In this document: piece after piece, positions 29,077 to 46,239 of the stretch | Layout of the letters: every line of letters starts with the position of its first letter | How positions within the stretch are numbered: the first letter of the stretch is position 1 | Source: Spirosoma aureum | GTDB lineage: Bacteria; Bacteroidota; Bacteroidia; Cytophagales; Spirosomataceae | DNA: 64,000 nucleotides | Direction: 5' to 3' | Assembly: GCF_011604685.1 (NCBI RefSeq) | Contig: NZ_CP050063.1 | Location: forward strand, 7,667,001 to 7,731,000 | Notes under the pieces: model-generated | What the model was told of the DNA's origin: nothing | Seen by the model: only the letters and a program-made list of their open reading frames with translations | Databases searched by the model: none | Made by a program: the position numbers and the translations under genes

Positions 29077-29493
29077 ATGAAAGCAGGCTTTGACCTGAGT
29101 AACCTGGAGTTTGCCCACGCCGACTCGATTGTTAAACATCTGGGCATTGAGTTTACGGAAGCAGGAGAAGGGTATCTGACCGCCCGAATGCCGGTCGATG
29201 GTCGGACTCACCAGCCTTTCGGGATTTTACACGGAGGAGCCTCGGTTGTTCTGGCCGAATCATTGGGTAGTACGGCCTCCTATATGCTGCTCGATGATCC
29301 AACTAAGCAACGGGCTGTCGGACTTGAAATCAATGCCAATCACCTCCGCTCCGTGCGCGAGGGATGGGTATATGGCCGTTGCACACCCATTCATACGGGT
29401 CGTACCACGCACGTATGGGACATTCGAATCACCGATGAAAACGGTAAGCTTGTTTGCGTGAGTCGGCTAACGATTGCGATTATCAATGGCTGA
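29077..29493 (+). CDS. Hotdog-fold acyl-CoA thioesterase (PaaI/MenI-like)
   Basis: This 138-residue hotdog protein has the GILHGGASVVLAESLGSTAS motif with the helix-start Glu that acts as catalytic base, and the strand KQRAVGLEINANHLRSVREGWVYGRC. I start at the ATG at 29077; an upstream TTG overlaps the divergent gene. Close families hydrolyse 1,4-dihydroxy-2-naphthoyl-CoA in menaquinone synthesis or phenylacetyl-type CoAs; which one cannot be decided. Its last 15 codons are duplicated at 30983, beyond the inserted cassette. Confidence 0.9.
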   Translation: MKAGFDLSNLEFAHADSIVKHLGIEFTEAGEGYLTARMPVDGRTHQPFGILHGGASVVLAESLGSTASYMLLDDPTKQRAVGLEINANHLRSVREGWVYGRCTPIHTGRTTHVWDIRITDENGKLVCVSRLTIAIING

Positions 29494-29640
29494 TTATTGG
29501 GATAGCAGCATCAATCCGTTTTATCAACCAAACAATCACTGATCATTTGTTAATTTCCTAAGCAGATAAAATAACTTTTCGAGCAGGCAACTGTCTTCTG
29601 TAACAACCTCGGCAGAAGCAGCCATGCCGCTTTTATGGGC
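29449..29640. repeat. 192-bp direct repeat, left copy
   Basis: This segment aligns without net gap to 30983-31174 (offset exactly 1534). It contains the real 3' end of the thioesterase gene, the spacer and a dead copy of the 3' end of the HlyD gene. Differences are about 1 in 38 in the thioesterase part, 5 in 83 in the HlyD part, and roughly 15 in 64 between them. Confidence 0.9.
29536..29640 (-). pseudogene. Orphan HlyD C-terminal fragment
   Basis: Read on the minus strand this encodes HKSGMAASAEVVTEDSCLLE followed by a basic tail and a stop. It is nearly the same as the C-terminus of the HlyD protein at 31073 (YKSGMAASAEVVTEDSRLLE). No start or body of the gene is attached. Confidence 0.85.
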
Positions 29641-30274
29641 CATTCGTTTTAATTTTACGTCCACTTATGGCTATTGTCTTTTGTAAAATCTTAGAGTACG
29701 CGATTCTGTTTACAGTGTCATTGTTTACAGAGTAGGAAAAGTAAATGGCCGTAGGATCTGACTGGATGGTTTTCCAAATTGCCATACTGGAATCAGGTAT
29801 ACTTAATGAATCGTTGTTCATAATGGAAACTTGATTAAAGAACGTTGGCGAAAAAAAGTTGTCAATTCGTTTTTTAATTTCCAGCTCATCCCTGTCAGGA
29901 ATAATTAGCCCTTCATGATTTAACAATTTACGAGCGGGGAAAACGGTTTTGTAGATAGGTTCCCCCTTATAATTAGTAATATTCAAAAAGACTTCTCCTG
30001 TAATTATTGATTCTCCGTTAACGTCTATGCTCAACGTGTCTTGCCAGGTTTGATTTGAGAAAAACCGAATAACACGGTTCGTATATAATGGCTTAATTTG
30101 ATTGGCATTTGTAATTTCGGGCGAATTATTTTCACTTGTTTGCGTACAAAAAGTAAAGCTTGTACTTATCATACATAGTACTAACTGTTGTAGTACTCGT
30201 CTCTGTTGTAAAATCCTCGTCATATAAAGGCAAAACTTGTTTCGTGTCCGTGATTCATGGTAAATTACCTTCAT
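29633..30274 (-). CDS. Secreted protein of unknown function (cassette gene 2)
   Basis: This frame of 213 residues includes a likely later start at Met18, giving a basic N-terminus and hydrophobic core (LQQLVLCMISTSFTFC). The Cys is not in a standard lipobox. The mature part has no motif I recognise; it is moderately acidic and rich in Ile, Asn and Ser. Its stop lies inside the left repeat copy, right at the cassette boundary. It is in the direction of, and downstream from, the peptide-export genes, so an immunity or accessory role is possible but unproven. Confidence 0.6.
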   Translation of the reverse strand: MKVIYHESRTRNKFCLYMTRILQQRRVLQQLVLCMISTSFTFCTQTSENNSPEITNANQIKPLYTNRVIRFFSNQTWQDTLSIDVNGESIITGEVFLNITNYKGEPIYKTVFPARKLLNHEGLIIPDRDELEIKKRIDNFFSPTFFNQVSIMNNDSLSIPDSSMAIWKTIQSDPTAIYFSYSVNNDTVNRIAYSKILQKTIAISGRKIKTNGP

Positions 30275-30576: not shown

Positions 30577-30936
30577 TTACTGAACAACTGTATAGAAGTT
30601 GTTTAGTGGCTCTGGATACCCCTGCTGCCACACAGCAAAAGCGATCTGTTTGTCATTACGGATTAGCGTGATTTTGGCCTGACTAGTAATAAGATTTGAA
30701 TAATACTCCTTGTTGGTCCTGCTGGATGTTGAATCGAAAGCGACCGAAAAGTCTCTGAGCTTAATTTGCCTTCTCACTCCTGACCAATCACTTATCAGTT
30801 TATGATCTACAAAGACCTGAATATTGTTTAATTCGTTAAGCATCGATATAGCAATACCTGTATTATCCTGAGCAAAACTATTTCTGACCAAGAAGCAAAA
30901 ACTAATGATTCGAAAGAAAATAAAACAGTGCTTCAT
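30577..30936 (-). CDS. Secreted protein of unknown function (cassette gene 1)
   Basis: This 119-residue protein has a cleavable signal peptide (MKHCFIFFRIISFCFLVRNSFAQ). The 96-residue mature part shows no known motif; it has several strand-like segments (NIQVFVDHKLISDW, QAKITLIRNDKQIAFAVWQ). A gap of about 300 bp separates it from the next cassette gene. It sits first after HlyD in the direction of transcription. The function is unknown. Confidence 0.6.
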   Translation of the reverse strand: MKHCFIFFRIISFCFLVRNSFAQDNTGIAISMLNELNNIQVFVDHKLISDWSGVRRQIKLRDFSVAFDSTSSRTNKEYYSNLITSQAKITLIRNDKQIAFAVWQQGYPEPLNNFYTVVQ

Positions 30937-30982: not shown

Positions 30983-31174
30983 TTTGTATGCGTGAGTCGG
31001 CTAACGATCGCGATTATCAATGGCTGATCATTGGATTGACAACATCAATTCGTTTCATCAACCAAACGATCACTACCCCTTCGTGAATTTCCTAAGCTGA
31101 TAAAACAACTTTTCGAGCAGGCGACTATCTTCTGTAACAACCTCGGCAGAAGCAGCCATGCCGCTTTTATAGGC
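30983..31174. repeat. 192-bp direct repeat, right copy
   Basis: Counterpart of 29449-29640. This copy contains the real 3' end of the HlyD gene and a dead copy of the last codons and stop of the thioesterase gene (30990-31027), cut off from any thioesterase body. Confidence 0.9.
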
Positions 31175-32365
31175 TAACTTCTGGCCATAACTCGTTCTTA
31201 AGCCGTTACTGAGGGTGACCTTGGCCAGAAATACGCTGTCTTTTAGAGAAACGTCTGCAATAGTTGCAATACGCCCATGCACAATCCCATATTCCTGATA
31301 GGGGTAGCCTACAAATTTTATCTGCACTTTCTGCCCAATCTGCACCTTCCCGGCATTCTGTTGCGGAATACGTAATTCACCAAAATAGGTAGTGTTGGGG
31401 GGCGCTACGTAAAATAACTCCTGATTGATCCCAACGGATTGGTTCTCCTGCAAAATACCCGCAAAAAAAACGCGTCCGGTTACGGGAGCAGTAAGTATAT
31501 ATTTCAACTTCCAGGCATCCGTTGCACTTTGCAAGGTGTTGAGGGTCTGCAAGAATTTATCCCGTTCTTCGGCTACCTGCTTCGCTAATTCCAGAATCTC
31601 TTTCTGCTTTGCCCGTTGCGCTGTAAGGTTATTAATTAATGCCGACATTGTTTGCTGGTAAGGTAGTTTCCGAGCGATGGCTTTACTTTCCTCCCTTTTC
31701 AACTCAAGCAGAGCAATCACCTTGTCTCTGGCTAACTGTTGCTGAATGGCGTAGTCTTCCTGGGCGAGCGTCATATCTCTTGCCTGTATCTGACGCTGTT
31801 CCTGTAAGTTGTGGGCCAATGCCCGTAAATCGGAGATTTCCTGCATCAAAAGCCTTTTTTTGTGACTATAAAATCCATTAGCCAGGTAAGCTCGTAGCTG
31901 AATATGCGCCTGCTCAAAGGTTTGGTAATCATTTTGTAACTCACCCAATTGGCTGTAATGGGATAAATCCAATCGATCCAATCCGTCAAGATTACCCTGA
32001 CTAGCTATCGACCAGGCTTTGGTTAGTTCGTGCGACAGCCGAAGTACTTGATCGTGATGAGCGGTGCTTTCCAGAAAAGCGAGTATTGTTCCAGCCCTTA
32101 CAGTCTGGCCTTCGTGCGCAAACAAACGAATCAGTTTACCGTCGGTACGGGTCAGAATAGCTTTGGGCGCGTTGGCAGAGGTGAGCTTTAACGAAGCCCG
32201 CACCAGATCAGGATAATGAACCATCCAGGCACCAACAAATACCAAGATAACAGCCAGACAGGCGACCGTAACACCCCAGCGAAGCAACCATTTCGGTGGT
32301 CGGGCCAACAGTTCGTGTACCTCCTCAGAGCGTAGTTCGGTAAAGTAATCTGAACCGGGATTCAT
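31073..32365 (-). CDS. HlyD-family adaptor of a peptide exporter
   Basis: This 430-residue protein has one N-terminal transmembrane helix (about 29-50), a lipoyl half-motif (DGKLIRLFAHEGQTVRAGTIL), about 190 residues of coiled-coil hairpin, the second lipoyl half (LTAPVTGRVFFAGILQENQSV) and a beta-barrel. It bridges the ABC exporter upstream (gap 72 bp) to an outer-membrane TolC, which is not in this operon; the TolC at 20258 is one candidate partner. It should carry the processed peptide across the periplasm. Confidence 0.9.
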   Translation of the reverse strand: MNPGSDYFTELRSEEVHELLARPPKWLLRWGVTVACLAVILVFVGAWMVHYPDLVRASLKLTSANAPKAILTRTDGKLIRLFAHEGQTVRAGTILAFLESTAHHDQVLRLSHELTKAWSIASQGNLDGLDRLDLSHYSQLGELQNDYQTFEQAHIQLRAYLANGFYSHKKRLLMQEISDLRALAHNLQEQRQIQARDMTLAQEDYAIQQQLARDKVIALLELKREESKAIARKLPYQQTMSALINNLTAQRAKQKEILELAKQVAEERDKFLQTLNTLQSATDAWKLKYILTAPVTGRVFFAGILQENQSVGINQELFYVAPPNTTYFGELRIPQQNAGKVQIGQKVQIKFVGYPYQEYGIVHGRIATIADVSLKDSVFLAKVTLSNGLRTSYGQKLAYKSGMAASAEVVTEDSRLLEKLFYQLRKFTKG

Positions 32366-32437: not shown

Positions 32438-34858
32438 CTACATACCTAGTTCCAGTTGATTCTTCACCAATTGCCAATAGCTTCCTTGCTTGGCAACGAG
32501 CATGGCATGAGTACCTATTTCCGTGATTTTCCCCTTATCCAACACAACAATCTGATCGGCATGACGAACCGTACTGAGTCGATGCGCAACGACTACTACT
32601 GTTCGTGGCCGTCCCGTATGATCACGAAAAAATGCATCCAGATTCTGCACAATCACGGCTTCGTTATTAGCATCTAGTGAATTAGTGGCTTCGTCGAAAA
32701 AGAGATAAGCAGGGTCTTTGTAAACCGCTCGGGCAATCAAAATTCGCTGTCGCTGACCCTGGCTGATGCCACTACCCTCTGCACCAATTTTTGTATGCAG
32801 ACCCGATGGCAATGAATCAACAAACTCTCGCAGATTGGCAACCTGTATGGCGTGCTCTAATTTTCGTGCATCAATTCGGTCTACTCCCACAGCAATATTC
32901 CGGGCAATGGTATCGGAAAAGATAAAACCGTCCTGCATAACCGCTCCGCATTGACTTCGCCAGAACGTATGACTTATACTTTTAAGCGGAATGCCACCCA
33001 GTGAGATGCCATTGCCCAATCGAATTTCGCCTTTGTTCGGTTCGTAGAACCGTAGCAAAAGTTTCAGTAATGTCGTTTTACCACTACCGCTCATACCAAC
33101 GATGGCCGTTGTTTTCCCCTTAGGAATCAATAGATCAATGCCTTGCAAAACAGGTTCGTTACCAGCACCCATATACTGGAATGATACATTTTTCAGATGC
33201 AACCCAACTGACTCAGGTATGGACGTCAGGAAAACGTGCTCAGCCGGTTCTTCATCGGCAAGCGTATGAATTTCGTTAAGCCGTTCAAGGCTAATTTTGG
33301 CATCCTGGAAACTTTGGACGAAGCCAATCAGTTGCTCAATGGGGCTGTTTAGCTGACCAATTAGTTGCTGCATGGCCAGCATACCTCCCAGCGACAACTG
33401 ACCGTTGATGACGGCTTGAGCAGCCAGAAATGTGATGAAAATATTCTTGCCTTCGTTAATGGTAAACGCCCCGGCCTGCTGGTACTGACTCAGGGCCAAC
33501 CCACGCATTTGCAAGCGAAACAGCCTTGCCTGTAATCGCTCCCACGCCCAGCGCATCGGTCGTTCAGCACCGGCCAGCTTGATTTCCTGCATACCCTGAA
33601 TCAGTTGCACCAGCCTACTCTGGTTCTTGGCGGATATATCGAACCGCTTAAAATCCAGTTTCCGGCGCTGGTGCAGAAATAGCACCACCCAGCCAACATA
33701 GAGGAGACTCGACACCACGAAAATGCTAAAAATGCTGAGGTTATACATGGCCAGCACTGCGCCGAAAATGACGAGGTTGACCATCGAAAACAGCACCGAA
33801 ATCGTTTGACTGGTCAGGAAGCTTTCGATCCGATGATGGTCGCCGATGCGCTGCATGAGATCGCCGAACTGTTTACTGTCGAAATAAGAGACGGGCAAGC
33901 GCATCAATTTGATCAGAAAATCAGACAGGATGCTCAGGTTAACGCGGGTGCTGATGTGCAATAGAATCCAGCTTCGGATAAACTCGACCGACAGCCGCCC
34001 AGCCATCAGCATGAGTTGCGCACCCAATACCAAATATATGAAGGGAATATTCTGCGTATTGACGCCCACATCCACAACCGACTGAGTCAGAAACGGGAAT
34101 AACAATTGCAACCCACTGCCGACAGCCAGCCCCAGCGCAAGTTGTACCAACAACCCTTTGTACTGCCATAAGTAGCCAAAGACCCGCTCGAAATTGTAAG
34201 CATTTGTCCGCTCGTCATCCTGTTCAAAAAAACCTGGAGTTGGTTCGAGCAGCAATACGACACCCTCACGCTCCTCACTTGTTTGCGACGATAACCAATG
34301 GTCACAAAACTCCTCGACCGAATAAGCGACTAACCCTTTGGCCGGGTCAGCTATATAAACTGTGCCTTTGGTTGCGAAGGGAAAGGAGTGCGGGGCAGGA
34401 TTTTGTCTAAACTGTTCCCTCTCAGCCCATCCAGTAGGCGAAATCATAACGTCGCCCTTATCGATCCTGAAATCGTGCATGAACGGTTTAGGCAATACGT
34501 CATTATCAATTCCTTTGATGGCCTTCCGGCCACCTTTAATACGGTTCATCCACCCTCCACTAGCTTTCTTAACGTCATAGACTACAACAAAGTGGTTCTG
34601 ATCCCAGTGTACAATGAAGGGCAAAGGTGCCTCCGTGGCTAATTTTTCGAACGAAACCTTGACGCCCATCGTCCGAAACCCAATGGCTTCAGCGGCTTCC
34701 GAAATACCCAGCAACGATACGCCCTCCTTGCCAATCTGAGATTTCTCCCGCAGTGTTTGCACTGTATAGGAACGGCCATAATGCTTGGCTACCATGCGCA
34801 GGCAGGTTGGGCCGCAATCCATTTGGTCGAGTTGAGTAAAGTGCGTGAACGGCCTCAT
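32438..34858 (-). CDS. Peptidase C39-containing ABC exporter (bacteriocin type)
   Basis: This 806-residue fused exporter starts with a C39 cysteine peptidase: Gln12 and Cys15 in LDQMDCGPTCL, His89 in DQNHFVVVYDV, and Asp171 in YIADPAKG. About 65 extra residues between His89 and Asp171 widen the peptidase domain. Six transmembrane helices follow (about 230-520). The ATPase then shows Walker A GMSGSGKTT, signature ISQGQRQ, Walker B YLFFDEA and H-loop VAHRLS. Such proteins cut double-glycine leaders and export the core peptide; the peptide at 36705 is the obvious local substrate. Confidence 0.93.
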   Translation of the reverse strand: MRPFTHFTQLDQMDCGPTCLRMVAKHYGRSYTVQTLREKSQIGKEGVSLLGISEAAEAIGFRTMGVKVSFEKLATEAPLPFIVHWDQNHFVVVYDVKKASGGWMNRIKGGRKAIKGIDNDVLPKPFMHDFRIDKGDVMISPTGWAEREQFRQNPAPHSFPFATKGTVYIADPAKGLVAYSVEEFCDHWLSSQTSEEREGVVLLLEPTPGFFEQDDERTNAYNFERVFGYLWQYKGLLVQLALGLAVGSGLQLLFPFLTQSVVDVGVNTQNIPFIYLVLGAQLMLMAGRLSVEFIRSWILLHISTRVNLSILSDFLIKLMRLPVSYFDSKQFGDLMQRIGDHHRIESFLTSQTISVLFSMVNLVIFGAVLAMYNLSIFSIFVVSSLLYVGWVVLFLHQRRKLDFKRFDISAKNQSRLVQLIQGMQEIKLAGAERPMRWAWERLQARLFRLQMRGLALSQYQQAGAFTINEGKNIFITFLAAQAVINGQLSLGGMLAMQQLIGQLNSPIEQLIGFVQSFQDAKISLERLNEIHTLADEEPAEHVFLTSIPESVGLHLKNVSFQYMGAGNEPVLQGIDLLIPKGKTTAIVGMSGSGKTTLLKLLLRFYEPNKGEIRLGNGISLGGIPLKSISHTFWRSQCGAVMQDGFIFSDTIARNIAVGVDRIDARKLEHAIQVANLREFVDSLPSGLHTKIGAEGSGISQGQRQRILIARAVYKDPAYLFFDEATNSLDANNEAVIVQNLDAFFRDHTGRPRTVVVVAHRLSTVRHADQIVVLDKGKITEIGTHAMLVAKQGSYWQLVKNQLELGM

Positions 34859-35118
34859 ATGAAAAGTGATTGTTGCAAAGGTCTCATAGATACTCGCTCA
34901 AGCAACTATTCCGTCAAAAAACGAGTATTTTGTCTAACTAAAATAACGGCTAAAACTCTTCAAATAAGCGGGTTAAGAAATTTTGCAACTGCCACGAAAG
35001 TTACATAACTGCCCTGTGAATAGTGTAATTTATTATAGCAGCTTAATTGTATTTAATAATTGTAAGTATACTTATCTTTACCTAAATCGAACTTAGCACA
35101 ATCCAAACGGATTAATTA

Positions 35119-36228
35119 TTAAGGCTTGTCTGCAAGAATTTCAGCTAATTTTTTTCCTAAATCTTCACCCCGTATGTTTTTCGCAACGATTTTCCCATCA
35201 GGATCGATCAAGAAGTTTTGGGGAATTAACCGAATAGCGTATTGCTTCGCTACTTCGCTGTCCCAATGTTTTAGATCAGATACTTGTGTCCAGTCAAGTT
35301 GGTCTTTATGAATGGCTTTCAGCCAGGCTTCTTTACCATTAGGCCGATCCAGCGAAACGCCCAGTACCGTAAAGTTTTTGTCTTTGTACTGCTTGAAATT
35401 CTTAACTAAATTCGGATTTTCAGCCCGGCAGGGACCGCACCAACTCGCCCAAAAATCAACCAGCACGTATTTCCCCCGGAAGCTACTCAAGGATATGGCT
35501 TTCCCCGAAGTATCAGGTTGCGTAAACTCAGGGGCCATTGCCCCAACCGAAGTGGCTTGAAGTAGAGCCAGCGTTTTAGCGTAATCTTTGCCGGTTTTGC
35601 TGGTTTTAATAGCCTCCGAGAGACTGCTGAACATCGGTTCCACTTTAGAAACTTCTGGAGCAAACCAATCTGTATATTGTTTCAGGACATACAGACTCAG
35701 CATAGAAGTTGGGTGTTCTTGAATAAACTGCGCTTTAATTTTATTCTGCTGGGCAAAAATGGCTTCGTTCCGCTTCTCGAAACGCCCTTTAAATTCCTTC
35801 TCTTTTTTCTGTTCTGGCGTAGCTGCCTGATATTGCTTCTCTAATAGCGCCATCTGGTCATCAGTTGGCTTGAGCTTTTTTTTCAACTTCTGATTATCGA
35901 TGTTCATCGGTGATCCGCCAACAACAGCGTTTTGAATGGAGTCAGGACTAGTCACAGAAATAGTGCCGGGTTCGAGATAGAACCGGATGGATGACTTGTC
36001 AATAAATAGCCACGCATGTTGGGGTTCATCGACGCTTCCTGTGATGGTAAATCTCCCGTTCTGAATCAGGGAGGAATCCGTATGTCCTGTATTTCCCACT
36101 ATATATCGCACATAAGCTTTGGCTGCTGGTTTAACCTTCCCTAATCTTCCTTCAATCGTGTAAACGTTACTTTGAGCCCAGACCAACGCTGGACTTACGA
36201 ACAATGAAATCAGTAGAAAAGGCTTCAT
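35119..36228 (-). CDS. TlpA-like thiol-disulfide oxidoreductase with DUF4369
   Basis: This 369-residue periplasmic protein has a signal peptide (to VWAQ), a DUF4369 beta domain (about 20-110), a helical linker and a C-terminal thioredoxin/AhpC-TSA domain. The active site is FWASWCGPCRAE and the cis-Pro is in LIPQNFLIDPDG. These proteins reduce or exchange disulfides outside the cytoplasm. Its place between the cysteine-rich peptide gene and the exporter suggests it handles that peptide's cysteines. Confidence 0.9.
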   Translation of the reverse strand: MKPFLLISLFVSPALVWAQSNVYTIEGRLGKVKPAAKAYVRYIVGNTGHTDSSLIQNGRFTITGSVDEPQHAWLFIDKSSIRFYLEPGTISVTSPDSIQNAVVGGSPMNIDNQKLKKKLKPTDDQMALLEKQYQAATPEQKKEKEFKGRFEKRNEAIFAQQNKIKAQFIQEHPTSMLSLYVLKQYTDWFAPEVSKVEPMFSSLSEAIKTSKTGKDYAKTLALLQATSVGAMAPEFTQPDTSGKAISLSSFRGKYVLVDFWASWCGPCRAENPNLVKNFKQYKDKNFTVLGVSLDRPNGKEAWLKAIHKDQLDWTQVSDLKHWDSEVAKQYAIRLIPQNFLIDPDGKIVAKNIRGEDLGKKLAEILADKP

Positions 36229-36600
36229 AAGCGTTTCATTTATTGGTTATGACTTTTAGAAGAATATGAAGTTTGCTTATTATTGGTACTGATGGAGGTT
36301 CCACCTATTTATTATCTGGGATAACAACTGAAATGATTTAAGAACTACTTTGCGGCAAGGAAAATCGATCAGCATTTCGTTGGAATTTCATGTCAGTTGT
36401 ATTTTTGAGTATGAGGCTATTTAAACGTTCCGTTTTCATCCAAACCATGCGTTTGTTTAGTCATGCTGAGGCCCGAAGCATCTGTTTCGGCCGGCCGGTT
36501 AAAGTCGGCTCATAGACAGTTTATTAGCAGACCACAGCATGGCAAAAAACAGCTAATTCACCACCGTTTTTAAACGCTTAAACAGTTTCTAAGTAAATAC
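36229..36600. other. Intergenic stretch between TlpA and the inverted repeat
   Basis: This 372-base stretch has no convincing frame on either strand. It contains a short CCGGCCGG-type palindrome near 36490. Promoter sequences for the TlpA gene may lie near 36260-36330, but I cannot define them. Confidence 0.45.
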
Positions 36601-36699
36601 TTGAGAGGTGGGCTTAAATAGAAACCTATGTATGTTCAAGTGTTGATAACCAAATCAATCCAATCACAGACACGGTTTCTATTTAAGCCCACCTCTCAA
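36601..36699. repeat. 26-bp perfect inverted repeat after the precursor gene
   Basis: Arms 36601-36626 and 36674-36699 match perfectly around 47 nt. The element ends 5 bp beyond the precursor's stop codon on the minus strand. It could be a transcript-end hairpin separating abundant precursor mRNA from the exporter genes, or a 99-bp miniature element. There is no T run for ordinary termination. Confidence 0.85.
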
Positions 36700-36704
36700 T
36701 TCAC

Positions 36705-36884
36705 TTAACTACACGAGCCATATTGTTTGCCGTCAGGTGAGCTACAACTTGTGCAACCAGATCCGCAGTCTGATTTCTCAAAACACGCACCGGCCGGGCA
36801 ACCATCGAGGAGACCTCCAGTCACTTTCTTCATTTTTTCTTTAGAAAGTATTTTGTTTGCAAATTTTGACATTACATGTTTCAT
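36705..36884 (-). CDS. Double-glycine-leader, six-cysteine precursor peptide (candidate bacteriocin/RiPP)
   Basis: This is a 59-codon gene. The leader is residues 1-24, ending LSKEKMKKVTGG, the hydrophobic-spaced double-glycine type cut by C39 peptidases. The core is 35 residues with Cys at core positions 5, 10, 16, 20, 23 and 34, many Gly and Ser, and no long hydrophobic stretch. It opens near GCPAGACFEKSDCGSGC and ends YGSCS. Met5 is an alternative start. It is surrounded by an exporter with a C39 domain, a TlpA protein and a VKOR-thioredoxin fusion, all on the same strand. Three disulfides would be possible. The activity (antibacterial, signalling or other) is not shown by sequence. Confidence 0.85.
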   Translation of the reverse strand: MKHVMSKFANKILSKEKMKKVTGGLLDGCPAGACFEKSDCGSGCTSCSSPDGKQYGSCS

Positions 36885-37179
36885 ACCGTAATTGTTTAAA
36901 GGTTAAAAATTAATTTATATGATTTGAACAATTCAAATCCAACTTTCATAAGCCAAGTCGTTTCAAAACGCCTTGGGTCACTGGTACATTATCAAAAAAC
37001 ACTACTTCAAGCATAGTACTGGCCAACAACTGTTCGACAGAATGCATGCTAATTAGAAATTGTCAATAGCGAGCTAGTGTCTAAATAGGCATAGTGTAAT
37101 CCTGTTCTTGAGGTAGATGATACAAACCAACTATGGAATAGTAGTGCCTTATTTAAGTCACTATAAAAAAGAACAGTCT
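36885..37179 (-). promoter_or_regulatory. Promoter region of the precursor gene with a 19-bp palindrome
   Basis: In this 295-base gap, perfect 8-bp arms at 36921-36928 and 36932-36939 around three bases form a palindrome 37-55 bp before the precursor ATG, a typical operator position. A 33-codon frame (36946-37047, minus) has no leader or cysteine pattern and I do not call it. Confidence 0.5.
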
Positions 37180-38802
37180 TCATAATAACGCGATGGATTC
37201 ATTTACATCACTTGAAAGTAGCCAAGTGATGTCCCCAATGTGGTAGTAGCCGGGAAAGCGAAAATTATTAAGGAACGAAGTAGGTGTAAAGGTGATCTGA
37301 GCTGTCCGGCACCAACGTCCATGCTCTAGTGCTACTTGCAAAGTATTTTCCAAATTGGCAGGGAACTTGGAGGCCCACCTTTCATAATTGTGTTGCGGTT
37401 GACTAAACCAAGCTGTTAGCGCATCGTCAACTAACGACGAGTCTAGTGCCAATAGATGTTGAGCAAGCTTAGTTATTCTGTCATTGCTATTTTCTGAAGT
37501 ATAAAAAACAACACGAACTCCTATATTAGAATTTCGACTAAGGAGGCCACTTATTTCTTTGTGCTTACGAGCGCAAGGGCTACAGTATGGATTAGTTACT
37601 ATCGTTAGAATATTTTTCGCATTTGGATTACCCAGCACAATCGGGTGTAAATCGGCAGAAATCGGCTGCATCTCCGGTTGCTGCAATAGCAGCGCCCGGA
37701 ACAAATCAGGATTACGTTTAAATTGCATTAGCTCGTTATGGTCCTGGCGGCTTTTGGGAAGATGAGCTAATAATGGCTTTAGGATTACCCACGCCAGTGT
37801 TGGCAATAAGAACGTAATCAGTATGAGCAGATAAGGCTGTACAAAATCAGGCAATGCATTTAACTGAATAGCCGCCAGCATTCCCTCTACTAATAAAACT
37901 GCCTGTACTGCCAGACACAACGAACACCATTGCCGAATGACGCGAGCCTGATAATAGACCGAAAACAGGGTATAGGGCAACGCCAGCCACGCCAAACCGG
38001 ACAGCAATGGGCGGACAGCAGGCTGGAAACCTATAATTAAAACTGTAATCAAGCCACCTGCAAAATAGAGCAACCCAACATCGGTCCAACTGAGCCACCC
38101 CCACAGCTTGGCGGCTGGGGAGTTAAGTACATCATCGCAATTGGTTTTGGCATTAATACTACATAGACGGTCGGCCAGGGCATTTTTACTGCCCAACTGT
38201 TTAGCTACCAACAAACCGCTGAGTAGCAAACCCGTTGACTTTGTAGCCAGCAGGAACCAGTCCGTTGCTTTAAGGTCCTTCGCTACGCTCAGGATGATGA
38301 CAAAAAAAATAAGCAGTGAGCCAACCAACGCAAACGGGCCGCGTAATTCATTAAGGACTTCCCGTTTACGATGGGCACTATAGTCGGATTCACCAGACTG
38401 TTCGTTTGTTTCGGCCAACAACACTATACCCGACCAGTTCTTTTCAAAGTCAGTCAATAAATCGCTCTTACGTCCCTGGGTATTGTCACTATATGTAATT
38501 CGGTTGCCTGTTAAAGCAGTCACTAATACATACCAACCACCATTCTTATGGAGGTGTGCAACAAAAGGTACTGGTAATTCACGGAGTTGCTCGGTCGTAT
38601 TGAGTTGGAGGGCTGTATTGTCAATATGCCAATCGGTAAGCAGGTCACTTAAACTAAGCAAGCTAGGAAAGTCAGGATGTTGCGAGAGTTCTTCCTGAAC
38701 AGTTGCACGCGTCACTTTTGCACCTAGCTCCTTCACCAGGGCGTAAAGTGTTGCCGTTGCATTTTCGTCGGTAGTATTTGATAGCGTGTCGAATAAAGCC
38801 AT
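37180..38802 (-). CDS. C39-like/VKOR/thioredoxin fusion membrane protein
   Basis: This 540-residue protein starts at the ATG at 38802; an upstream start at 38853 adds 17 unmatched residues. Residues 15-130 form a C39-like domain lacking the catalytic Cys (HPDFPSLLSLSDLL, HKNGGWYVLV). A VKOR domain (about 155-345) has Cys214 and Cys222 in LCSINAKTNCDD and the CSLC pair 293/296. A C-terminal thioredoxin domain has CSPC (407-410). VKOR proteins oxidise thiols using quinone. Placed upstream of a six-Cys peptide, it probably drives disulfide formation in the peptide, with the dead C39 domain as leader binder. Residues 168-178 come from a dispersed repeat (see 38273). Confidence 0.88.
   Translation of the reverse strand: MALFDTLSNTTDENATATLYALVKELGAKVTRATVQEELSQHPDFPSLLSLSDLLTDWHIDNTALQLNTTEQLRELPVPFVAHLHKNGGWYVLVTALTGNRITYSDNTQGRKSDLLTDFEKNWSGIVLLAETNEQSGESDYSAHRKREVLNELRGPFALVGSLLIFFVIILSVAKDLKATDWFLLATKSTGLLLSGLLVAKQLGSKNALADRLCSINAKTNCDDVLNSPAAKLWGWLSWTDVGLLYFAGGLITVLIIGFQPAVRPLLSGLAWLALPYTLFSVYYQARVIRQWCSLCLAVQAVLLVEGMLAAIQLNALPDFVQPYLLILITFLLPTLAWVILKPLLAHLPKSRQDHNELMQFKRNPDLFRALLLQQPEMQPISADLHPIVLGNPNAKNILTIVTNPYCSPCARKHKEISGLLSRNSNIGVRVVFYTSENSNDRITKLAQHLLALDSSLVDDALTAWFSQPQHNYERWASKFPANLENTLQVALEHGRWCRTAQITFTPTSFLNNFRFPGYYHIGDITWLLSSDVNESIALL
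38273..38302. repeat. Dispersed 'HPERSEG / LSVAKDL' repeat unit inside the VKOR gene
   Basis: The bases with core TCCTTCGCTACGCTCAGGAT are a palindromic repeat unit I recall from many unrelated bacterial genomes, usually between genes. Here it is read in frame as VIILSVAKDLK within the first VKOR membrane segment. Identification is from memory. Confidence 0.6.
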
Positions 38803-45039: not shown

Positions 45040-46239
45040 GTGAATTTTCTTCGTTTCTACATACTTACTGCGTTCGGGACTGAAGTGCAACACTACGGAG
45101 ACTGCTTCGTTGTCCGTTTTAGTTGTTCCAAGCAGGTTTTGGAAATAGGTTCGGCTGTTGAACGTTTTGGGGTAAACAAACTCCTCGGCAGTCTCTCGAA
45201 AACGATTGATCCTGTCGAGGGGCAGGTTTTGCGGATTAGCCCGATTGTACGTCGTCAAGTAAAAGTGGACAAATGCGGTGAAAAGGTGAAGAGACAACGT
45301 CAGTTAAAGCAACTACCTACCTGGAATCCAGCGGAAGCCCTATTCTGTATGGAGCACACAGGGATATACAACGCCCACTTACTAGATTTTTTGCATAAGC
45401 TACATGTACCTATCTGGTTAGAGAACAGCTTACAAATCAAGCAGTCAGGCGGTATGCAGCGGGGCAAAAATGACACCGTCGATGCTCAACGGATTGCGGA
45501 GTATGCCCGCGGTGGCGTACCACTATCGCTTTCGTGATCAGGTCCGCTTATGGGAACCACCTCGGTAGCTTATTCAGCAGTTAACGTTCTTAAGTGCTGC
45601 CCGCCAACGGCTTATTCAGGCGTATAATTTATTAGCTGGGCCACTCATTGAACAAGACCGGGCTGCCAGCGCAGTCATTTGTCAATCCCCTTTTACAAAA
45701 GCAACTTCAACGTAATAGCCGAAAGTCGTTGATGGCCCTTAAGGAAGAGCAAAAAGTAATTGATCACCAGATTCAGAGTCTTATCCAAGCTGATACTCGC
45801 CTTAAAGAACTCTTTAATTGGATCGTTTCTGTCCCAAGAATCGGTCCAGCGACAGCGACTGAAATCTTGGTGGTTACCAATGAAATGAAGGCCATCACTG
45901 ATCCTAAGCAGATGGCGGCTTCGGCCGTCCGATTGCCATGCGGGCGTGGCTCCATTTGAATATCGCTCAGGCACTAGTATCCGGGGTAAGACCCGACTCA
46001 GTCACCAAGCTAGAAAACGGTTGAAAACCTTGTTTCGTCTAGGGGCTATGTCGGTTATTCAAATGAAGGGGGAGCTTCAGAGCTATTACCAACGTAAAGT
46101 AGGTGAGGATAAGAATAAGATGCTGGTGCTGAATGCCGTTCGTAACAATCGGACCGCCGAGCGGCTGATCCATCGGGTATACGCAGTTGTGCGTCGGGGC
46201 GAAAAATATAACAAAAATTATGTGTCACCGCTTGCATAG
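45040..46239 (+). pseudogene. IS110-family transposase, broken
   Basis: In-order blocks of one IS110 (DEDD) transposase lie in different frames. They are ALFCMEHTGIYNAHLLDFL with RGKNDTVDAQRIAEYA; then YRFRDQVRLWEPPR with an in-frame TAG at 45566; then VSVPRIGPATATEILVVTNEM; then CHAGVAPFEYRSGTSIRGKT and LIHRVYAVVRRGEKY. Four insertions of 15-16 nt (near 45508, 45662, 45918 and 46149) cause or accompany the breaks. The first catalytic Asp region is not recognisable. The element cannot make active transposase. Confidence 0.88.

Follow-up and report, generated by a model that had tools for sequence, protein, structure and literature searches.

A catalytically dead C39 domain fused to VKOR and DsbA-like domains beside double-glycine cysteine-rich peptides in Spirosoma aureum and other Bacteroidota

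Introduction

We analysed a stretch of 64,000 nucleotides from the genome of Spirosoma aureum (a single contig of 8.9 Mb, NZ_CP050063.1; positions 7,667,001 to 7,731,000), hereafter called the window, around a small gene that encodes a six-cysteine precursor peptide with a double-glycine leader. This gene lies directly downstream of a gene encoding a fusion protein, composed of a catalytically dead C39 peptidase domain, a VKOR domain and a DsbA-like domain, and upstream of genes for a thioredoxin, an ABC exporter with a C39 peptidase (PCAT) and a HlyD-type adaptor. By its sequence and its surroundings the peptide is to be placed in a large Bacteroidota family, and we lean, with modest confidence, towards the locus being a dedicated line in which a disulfide-rich secreted peptide is docked, oxidised, cut and exported. 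The locus had been described before from the letters of the DNA alone, a description that we refer to as the sequence-only reading.

The precursor peptide and the fusion protein

The two genes that are central to the locus are:
36705..36884, minus strand: double-glycine precursor peptide of 59 amino acids with an ATG start, consisting of a 24-residue leader and a 35-residue core with six cysteines
37180..38802, minus strand: pseudo-C39/VKOR/DsbA-like fusion of 540 amino acids from the ATG; a start at the GTG further upstream (38853) would give 557

The leader of the peptide ends in ...LSKEKMKKVTGG, with Gly24 as its last residue. Its L13 and M18 take positions -12 and -7 with respect to the putative cut, a Val takes position -4 and G23/G24 take positions -2/-1, so that it fits the pattern of PCAT substrates (L at -12, a hydrophobic residue at -7, GG; consensus from PMC6959990), with a Lys in place of the consensus E at -8 and a Glu at -9. 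A leader rule for small open reading frames (ORFs) had one match in the 64-kb window, namely this ORF, which was also the sole match in its own genome to a 25-row profile of such peptides (E ≤ 10). The core was without a match to a Pfam family and without an NCBIfam model above cut-off. The leader is alike to those covered by several NCBIfam models, every score of the peptide being below the curated cut-off: CCPGW (NF047792; 21.1 bits, cut-off 80), leader_Chryseo (NF047798; 15, cut-off 23.5), TIGR04149 (14.8, cut-off 25) and TIGR01847 (13.8, cut-off 15.7). A direct protein search with the 59 residues, of a type that requires shared five-residue words, returned zero homologues and we therefore used whole-genome searches and the fusion as query instead. 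A chance ORF is ruled out by the family matches that were obtained in this way, the sole in-genome profile match and a clean reversed-sequence control, and the six-cysteine double-glycine peptide of the sequence-only reading is thereby confirmed. We propose, on the basis of its leader, that the product is cut after Gly24 and exported.

Within the fusion, the Pfam models Peptidase_C39 (54.1 bits) and VKOR (64.5 bits, cut-off 27.5) scored above cut-off and Thioredoxin_4 slightly below it (21.9, cut-off 23.2), and a structure model (mean pLDDT 87.6) matched C39, VKOR and ScsC/BdbD-type proteins. At the aligned positions of the C39-like domain the catalytic Cys was found in 0/53 fusions and the His in 1/53, and a [DEN]CG motif was absent from the first 60 residues of all 53 and of all 114 fusions, which agrees with the earlier claim that this domain is inactive. 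The redox cysteines of the VKOR and DsbA-like parts are retained in 52 or 53 of the 53 fusions (VKOR: C214 and C222 in 52, C293 and C296 in 53), and the dead domain has a conserved motif of its own, HP.[FY]PS. The dead C39 domain probably binds the leader, as judged from its fold, its context and the register of the leader. The residues A55/I59, with which PCAT1 contacts its leader (PMC6959990), map to L49/S53 in the exporter of the window and, via a profile alignment, to L48/S52 in the fusion, which is compatible with docking and not decisive. The named proteins nearest to the fusion, among the matches listed, were from Spirosoma. Two relatives (L050, 11759-11786; L051, 9015-9095) encode the fusion in two separate frames, with breaks at almost identical positions within the first membrane helix.

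Association of the peptides with the fusion throughout Bacteroidota

The association was followed in: i) 98 other genomes, searched with a single query, the window peptide (E ≤ 0.1); ii) a separate class-wide sample of 396 genomes, from which 32 fusion loci were fetched and scanned with the leader rule fixed in advance, where the limit of 3 kb and the minimum of two core cysteines were chosen after a first look; and iii) a two-motif scan of genome contigs, which yielded 30 loci. The window peptide had a match in 11/98 genomes, nine of which carry a fusion match (versus 24/98 overall), and seven of the 11 peptide matches sit at most 10 kb from the fusion. Over 99 genomes the 25-peptide profile matched in 23, the fusion query in 25 (two of these, G036 and G098, with coverage of the N-domain only) and both in 20, an overlap that is not independent because the profile was built from fusion-adjacent peptides. 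Out of 27 loci fetched from relatives 23 were counted (L067-L069 and L071 were excluded): 15 of them have a peptide within 3 kb, and the number of cysteines was even in 16/19 peptides.

The sequence-only reading had proposed a profile and neighbour search in other Bacteroidota, and in the class-wide sample the leader rule retrieved a double-glycine peptide at most 3 kb from the fusion in 25 of the 32 loci. All 42 peptides recovered are on the strand of the fusion. Their cysteine count is even in 39 cases (binomial 6e-9, for peptides that are related and hence not independent) and in 24 of 25 when one peptide is taken per locus, a parity that fits a full pairing of the core cysteines. The same rule, with at least two core cysteines, gave no match in either of two controls, namely 532 kb of reversed sequence and 84.5 kb around seven VKOR genes that are not part of a fusion. 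Two loci (L159, 7110-7640; L161, 7259-7773) each contain a series of three consecutive ORFs that are leader-like, near-identical and free of cysteine and lie on the other strand than the fusion, and these six were kept out of the class counts. The 42 leaders appear close to the PCAT consensus except for a frequent Gln at -7: Leu takes position -12 in 36, Glu takes -8 in 31, Val or Ile takes -4 in 39, and -7 is Met in 20, Gln in 14 and Leu in six. The positions -12, -7 and -4 are those that contact the peptidase domains of PCATs (PMC6959990; PMC6363468).

The loci of the two-motif scan include Spirosoma, Fibrella, Pedobacter, Mucilaginibacter, Chitinophaga, Filimonas, Chryseobacterium, Kordia and a metagenome-assembled genome of a goat-rumen Bacteroidales. 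All 12 Chryseobacterium loci (L089-L099, L102) contain a fusion-adjacent peptide with a nearly constant core ending in NGTFCCG, and two of these (L096, L099) have a second pair of peptide and fusion. Within Spirosoma and relatives the cores differ strongly between genomes and several are possible in one locus. The fusion also makes up most of the VKOR complement of the class-wide sample: 45 VKOR matches were recovered in 35 genomes, 37 of which are the fusion, in 30 of the 35 genomes and each with a match to the N-domain (hand tally; two split genes), and the remaining eight (L166-L173) are not this fusion.

Membrane orientation of the fusion

Ordinary VKOR-thioredoxin (VKOR-Trx) proteins have five helices, with the N terminus inside and the Trx-like domain outside, and a natural inverted VKOR is found in archaea. 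According to the positive-inside rule, loops rich in Lys and Arg face the cytoplasm. We counted Lys+Arg in the loops of 114 fusions and of 69 VKOR-Trx proteins without C39, each group chosen by length from its own list of 120 matches. Between C39 and VKOR all 114 fusions have one more helix, which is strongly hydrophobic (best hydropathy over 19 residues ≥ 1.6), and this additional helix would put the C39 and DsbA-like domains on the same side of the membrane. The loop charges are reversed in 114/114 fusions, with 0/114 in the ordinary sense, whereas 67/69 controls have the ordinary sense, with one tie and one against. The corresponding densities (Lys+Arg per 10 residues, L23+L45 versus L12+L34+post) are 0.33 versus 1.50 for the fusions and 1.67 versus 0.62 for the controls. 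The positive-inside rule would thus assign the dead C39 domain to the cytoplasm, together with the catalytic loop and the DsbA-like domain. This is the side on which the leader is, and on which the peptidase domain of PCATs binds and cuts it (PMC6959990). The dedicated periplasmic oxidation route of the sequence-only reading therefore survives in part: oxidation and export genes that look dedicated recur together in many genomes, and the charge reversal and the extra helix speak against the periplasmic location.

The dead C39 domain outside the fusion

The loci fetched from relatives, from the class sample and by the two-motif scan, together with a further set, were scanned for dead C39 domains in other settings. 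Three genomes (L068, L174, L175) encode the domain as a fusion with a 2OG-Fe(II) oxygenase and one (L150) as a fusion with an FkbM-type methyltransferase. In L152 it is part of a protein that appears to have membrane helices, and in L176, L177 and L178 it makes up a short protein by itself. The Pfam C39 model scored above cut-off in L068, L150, L152 and L176 and below it in L175, and the domain of L174 was unreported by this model and detected only with a custom profile. A LanB-type dehydratase is encoded in L174, L176 and L178 and a LanC-like protein in L174 and L178. As it occurs with other enzymes, or alone near lanthipeptide genes, the dead C39 domain looks like a portable leader-docking domain. 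The earlier idea that it delivers the peptide is retained in so far that, given the dead site and the fusions to other enzymes, it probably binds the leader.

The fold of the RRE, a domain of enzymes that act on ribosomally synthesised and post-translationally modified peptides (RiPPs), differs from that of C39. The RRE binds leaders and occurs either on its own or as a part of modifying enzymes (PMC7470986, which does not mention C39). Among the papers listed in searches of an open-licence library we found none on the fusion or on a C39 docking part outside exporters, and the terms C39, peptidase and Bacteroid are absent from PMC4555120.

Several of these loci showed further genes. In L068 (7265-10164) the dead-C39/2OG oxygenase gene is followed by a gene whose product resembles, by eye, a NodU-type carbamoyltransferase and then by PCAT and HlyD genes, and this is possibly another modified-peptide locus. 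A glycosyltransferase gene adjoins the peptide in L055 (8412-9779), and in another relative a gene that is similar by eye (L047, 10624-10965, with L071, 292-987) is interrupted by a contig end.

Proposed mechanism and alternative explanations

In the line that we propose, the double-glycine leader would dock in the cytoplasm onto the C39 domain of the fusion, which is catalytically dead, and the DsbA-like domain would join the six core cysteines into three disulfides. The calculated monoisotopic mass of the core is 3419.32 when reduced and 3413.27 with all three bonds. The VKOR domain would keep the DsbA-like domain oxidised and pass the electrons on to quinone, the active site of the inverted VKOR facing the cytoplasm. 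The active C39 domain of the exporter would then take over the leader and cut after Gly24, upon which the 35-residue core would leave via HlyD and an outer-membrane channel encoded elsewhere, and the periplasmic TlpA may reshuffle wrong disulfides. The order of these steps is one that we infer. The product would most likely be a bacteriocin-like peptide of narrow range.

Various observations weigh against this proposal. The topology was derived by charge counting with loop limits placed by eye, and on the core loops only 54/69 controls keep the ordinary sense, with 12 ties and three opposite. The bacterial cytoplasm is generally reducing. Seven of the 32 class loci have no peptide within 3 kb: there are two peptides at 3.8 kb from the fusion in L135, one at 3.4 kb in L152 and two at about 4 kb, on the opposite strand, in L150, the rest being L144, L145, L163 and L165. 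Only 22 of the 32 class loci contain a PCAT and only 18 a TlpA (20 have HlyD; six loci are shorter than 15 kb), and the Gln found at -7 in 14 of the 42 class leaders is not hydrophobic. Finally, a Bacteroidota-type promoter pattern had no -7 match upstream of the peptide; its -7 parts alone occur upstream of the fusion and elsewhere.

Should the fusion be an ordinary VKOR-DsbA oxidase that faces the periplasm, then the exporter would cut first, oxidation would follow in the periplasm and the dead C39 domain would either aid delivery or itself be periplasmic. Bacterial VKOR-DsbA systems are known to act there (PMC11208910), the VKOR-Trx controls have the ordinary, periplasm-facing orientation and TlpA reads as an exported protein. 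This arrangement is nevertheless unlikely: the charges are reversed in every fusion, PCATs handle the leader on the cytosolic side (PMC6959990), and with an even number of helices and reversed charges a dead C39 domain of 150 residues would need to be moved across the membrane although it lacks a signal peptide. The same machinery might also make a secreted peptide that is no bacteriocin but serves as a signal (pheromone) or in housekeeping. Double-glycine leaders serve signals as well, and the near-constant core of the 12 Chryseobacterium loci is unlike that of a rapidly varying toxin, but the Spirosoma-group cores vary strongly with several per locus, the core of the closest relative is unrelated, and of the eight proteins scanned (29.6-39.5 kb of the window) none was recognised as an adjacent sensor, which leaves this explanation rather doubtful.

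That the dead C39 domain is a fusion vestige without a role, in what is otherwise a plain locus of a disulfide-bonded class II bacteriocin, would account for its lack of any protease function and for the genes that are split near the join in three loci (L050, L051, L151). We consider it quite improbable, as the domain is kept in 37/37 family VKOR matches of the class sample, has the conserved motif HP.[FY]PS and occurs with other enzymes. A product of the radical-SAM or lanthipeptide type, towards which the faint resemblance of the leader to TIGR04149 might point, seems very improbable: the radical-SAM and lanthipeptide dehydratase families had no match among the same eight proteins and the even cysteine parity holds across the family. 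On these Pfam and NCBIfam scans this type of product was rejected.

Comparison with known systems and significance

The sequence-only reading considered the core unlike known bacteriocin classes. The lack of a Pfam or NCBIfam match over cut-off is in line with this, but the plan of the locus resembles that of the bacteroidetocins, toxins that kill Bacteroidales; their plan comprises a transmembrane protein, a small double-glycine peptide, a thiol oxidoreductase and a C39 exporter (Coyne et al. 2019, PMC6671954). According to the same source, bacteroidetocins migrate as if disulfide-bonded, their leader is removed at GG, later members carry at least two cysteines, and deletion of the transmembrane protein or the thiol oxidoreductase weakens toxin activity, both being needed for full activity. 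Compared by description only, the two systems share gene order, a cysteine-containing core and a GG leader; the bacteroidetocin core has 42 residues and four cysteines and that of the window 35 and six, so that the cores do not agree. Furthermore, the bacteroidetocin transmembrane protein, which is called unknown and has five helices, contrasts with the dead-C39/VKOR/DsbA fusion, and the HlyD of the window is additional to the bacteroidetocin plan.

In glycocin loci, such as that of sublancin, a disulfide-rich peptide is also served by a C39 exporter and by thiol-disulfide oxidoreductases (PMC12457901), but the type of oxidoreductase differs from that of the window, where no glycosyltransferase was found among the eight proteins scanned. 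In HlyB-type exporters a dead C39-like domain (CLD) recruits the substrate (PMC6363468; PDB 3zua); the CLD is part of the ABC exporter, whereas the dead C39 described here is fused to an oxidase or to other enzymes. With respect to the VKOR-Trx of Synechococcus (PDB 4nv5, 4nv2), the fusion adds an N-terminal C39-like domain and a helix and has reversed loop charges. An engineered inverted VKOR makes disulfides in the cytoplasm of E. coli (PMC5471842) and has the orientation proposed here, but it is engineered and without a link to a peptide locus. If the proposal is true, the fusion would show that bacteria naturally possess an enzyme that forms disulfides on the cytoplasmic side with quinone as the driving oxidant, and would represent the main use of VKOR in this class (37/45 matches), and the C39 fold would join the possible means of leader recognition of peptide-modifying enzymes. 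It would also open a large set of little-annotated peptides with an even number of cysteines, often several per locus, for discovery, and offer a route to making disulfide peptides in bacteria.

Neighbouring genes, repeats and block exchange

The order on the minus strand is: the fusion (38802-37180), a gap of 295 bp, the peptide, an inverted repeat, TlpA-like, PCAT, HlyD and two genes without a family. The same-strand C39 exporter, HlyD, TlpA and C39/VKOR/thioredoxin fusion of the sequence-only reading were all recovered with Pfam. The features of the surroundings are:
36601..36699 (arms 36601-36626 and 36674-36699), minus strand: 26-bp perfect inverted repeat with a 47-nt spacer, 5 bases past the stop codon of the peptide
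35119..36228, minus strand: TlpA-like thioredoxin with DUF4369 (Pfam AhpC-TSA, DUF4369), the N terminus of which reads by eye as a signal peptide
32438..34858, minus strand: PCAT, ABC exporter with C39 peptidase (Pfam C39, ABC_membrane and ABC_tran above cut-off)
31073..32365, minus strand: HlyD-type adaptor (HlyD_3 49.0 bits; TIGR01843 109.9 bits, under the cut-off of 208.65)
30577..30936, minus strand: protein of 119 amino acids without a known family, which recurs in loci L045, L051 and L071; a candidate for an accessory or immunity function
29633..30274, minus strand: protein of 213 amino acids without a known family, which recurs in L045; likewise a candidate for accessory or immunity functions
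34820..38100 (about 3.3 kb), no strand: exchanged block with the rest of VKOR, the DsbA-like domain, peptide and TlpA between near-identical flanks, limits approximate

The C39 domain of the PCAT is intact, with C15, H89 and D171 invariant in 20/20 aligned homologues. With respect to the closest relative (L045), the DNA identity is 95-98% at 38,866-38,117, drops to 64-76% at 38,116-37,667 and then to about 40-57%, the chance level for such an alignment, up to 34,958, and is 87-98% over the PCAT and HlyD genes. Correspondingly, the N-half of the fusion protein is 96.5% identical and the remainder 56.0%, and L045 has an unrelated core at the position of the peptide. The conserved flanks and the changed block imply that the putative docking domain and the exporter stay, and that the core changes together with the domains that would touch it. 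When all pairs of the 114 fusions are compared, divergence is similar in both halves (mean identity 38 and 42%); for the 11 pairs with an N-half identity of at least 85% the C-half is lower by at least 15 points in five, and as these pairs are a selected set, recurrent block exchange is only suggested. For Bacteroidota at large, we consider the chances evenly balanced that the dead C39 is a general leader-docking module of peptide-modifying enzymes, equivalent to the RRE but with the C39 fold, that one of its main uses is in a naturally inverted VKOR-DsbA that makes cytoplasmic disulfides before export, and that the core-handling half of this oxidase is exchanged as one cassette with the peptide and TlpA. 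The gene in the TlpA position of L045 (11491-12665) appears broken into several frames and no TlpA match was found there.

The hairpin of the inverted repeat has a predicted energy of -57.3 kcal/mol (z -10). The repeat is single copy in the genome, allowing three mismatches, and a repeated mobile element was therefore rejected. Stems of at least 14 bp within 250 nt downstream of the peptide occur in 8/13 hand-picked relative loci and for 8/42 class peptides, compared with 6/200 random stretches by the same measure, and their sequence differs between loci. A 191-nt direct repeat (88%; 29450-29640 and 30984-31174) covers the HlyD gene at its 3' end and brackets the two genes without a family. 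Both copies are also present in L045, and the region between them looks like a cassette joined by recombination. Further away, the plus-strand ORFs at 45040-46239 by eye resemble a broken IS110-type transposase.

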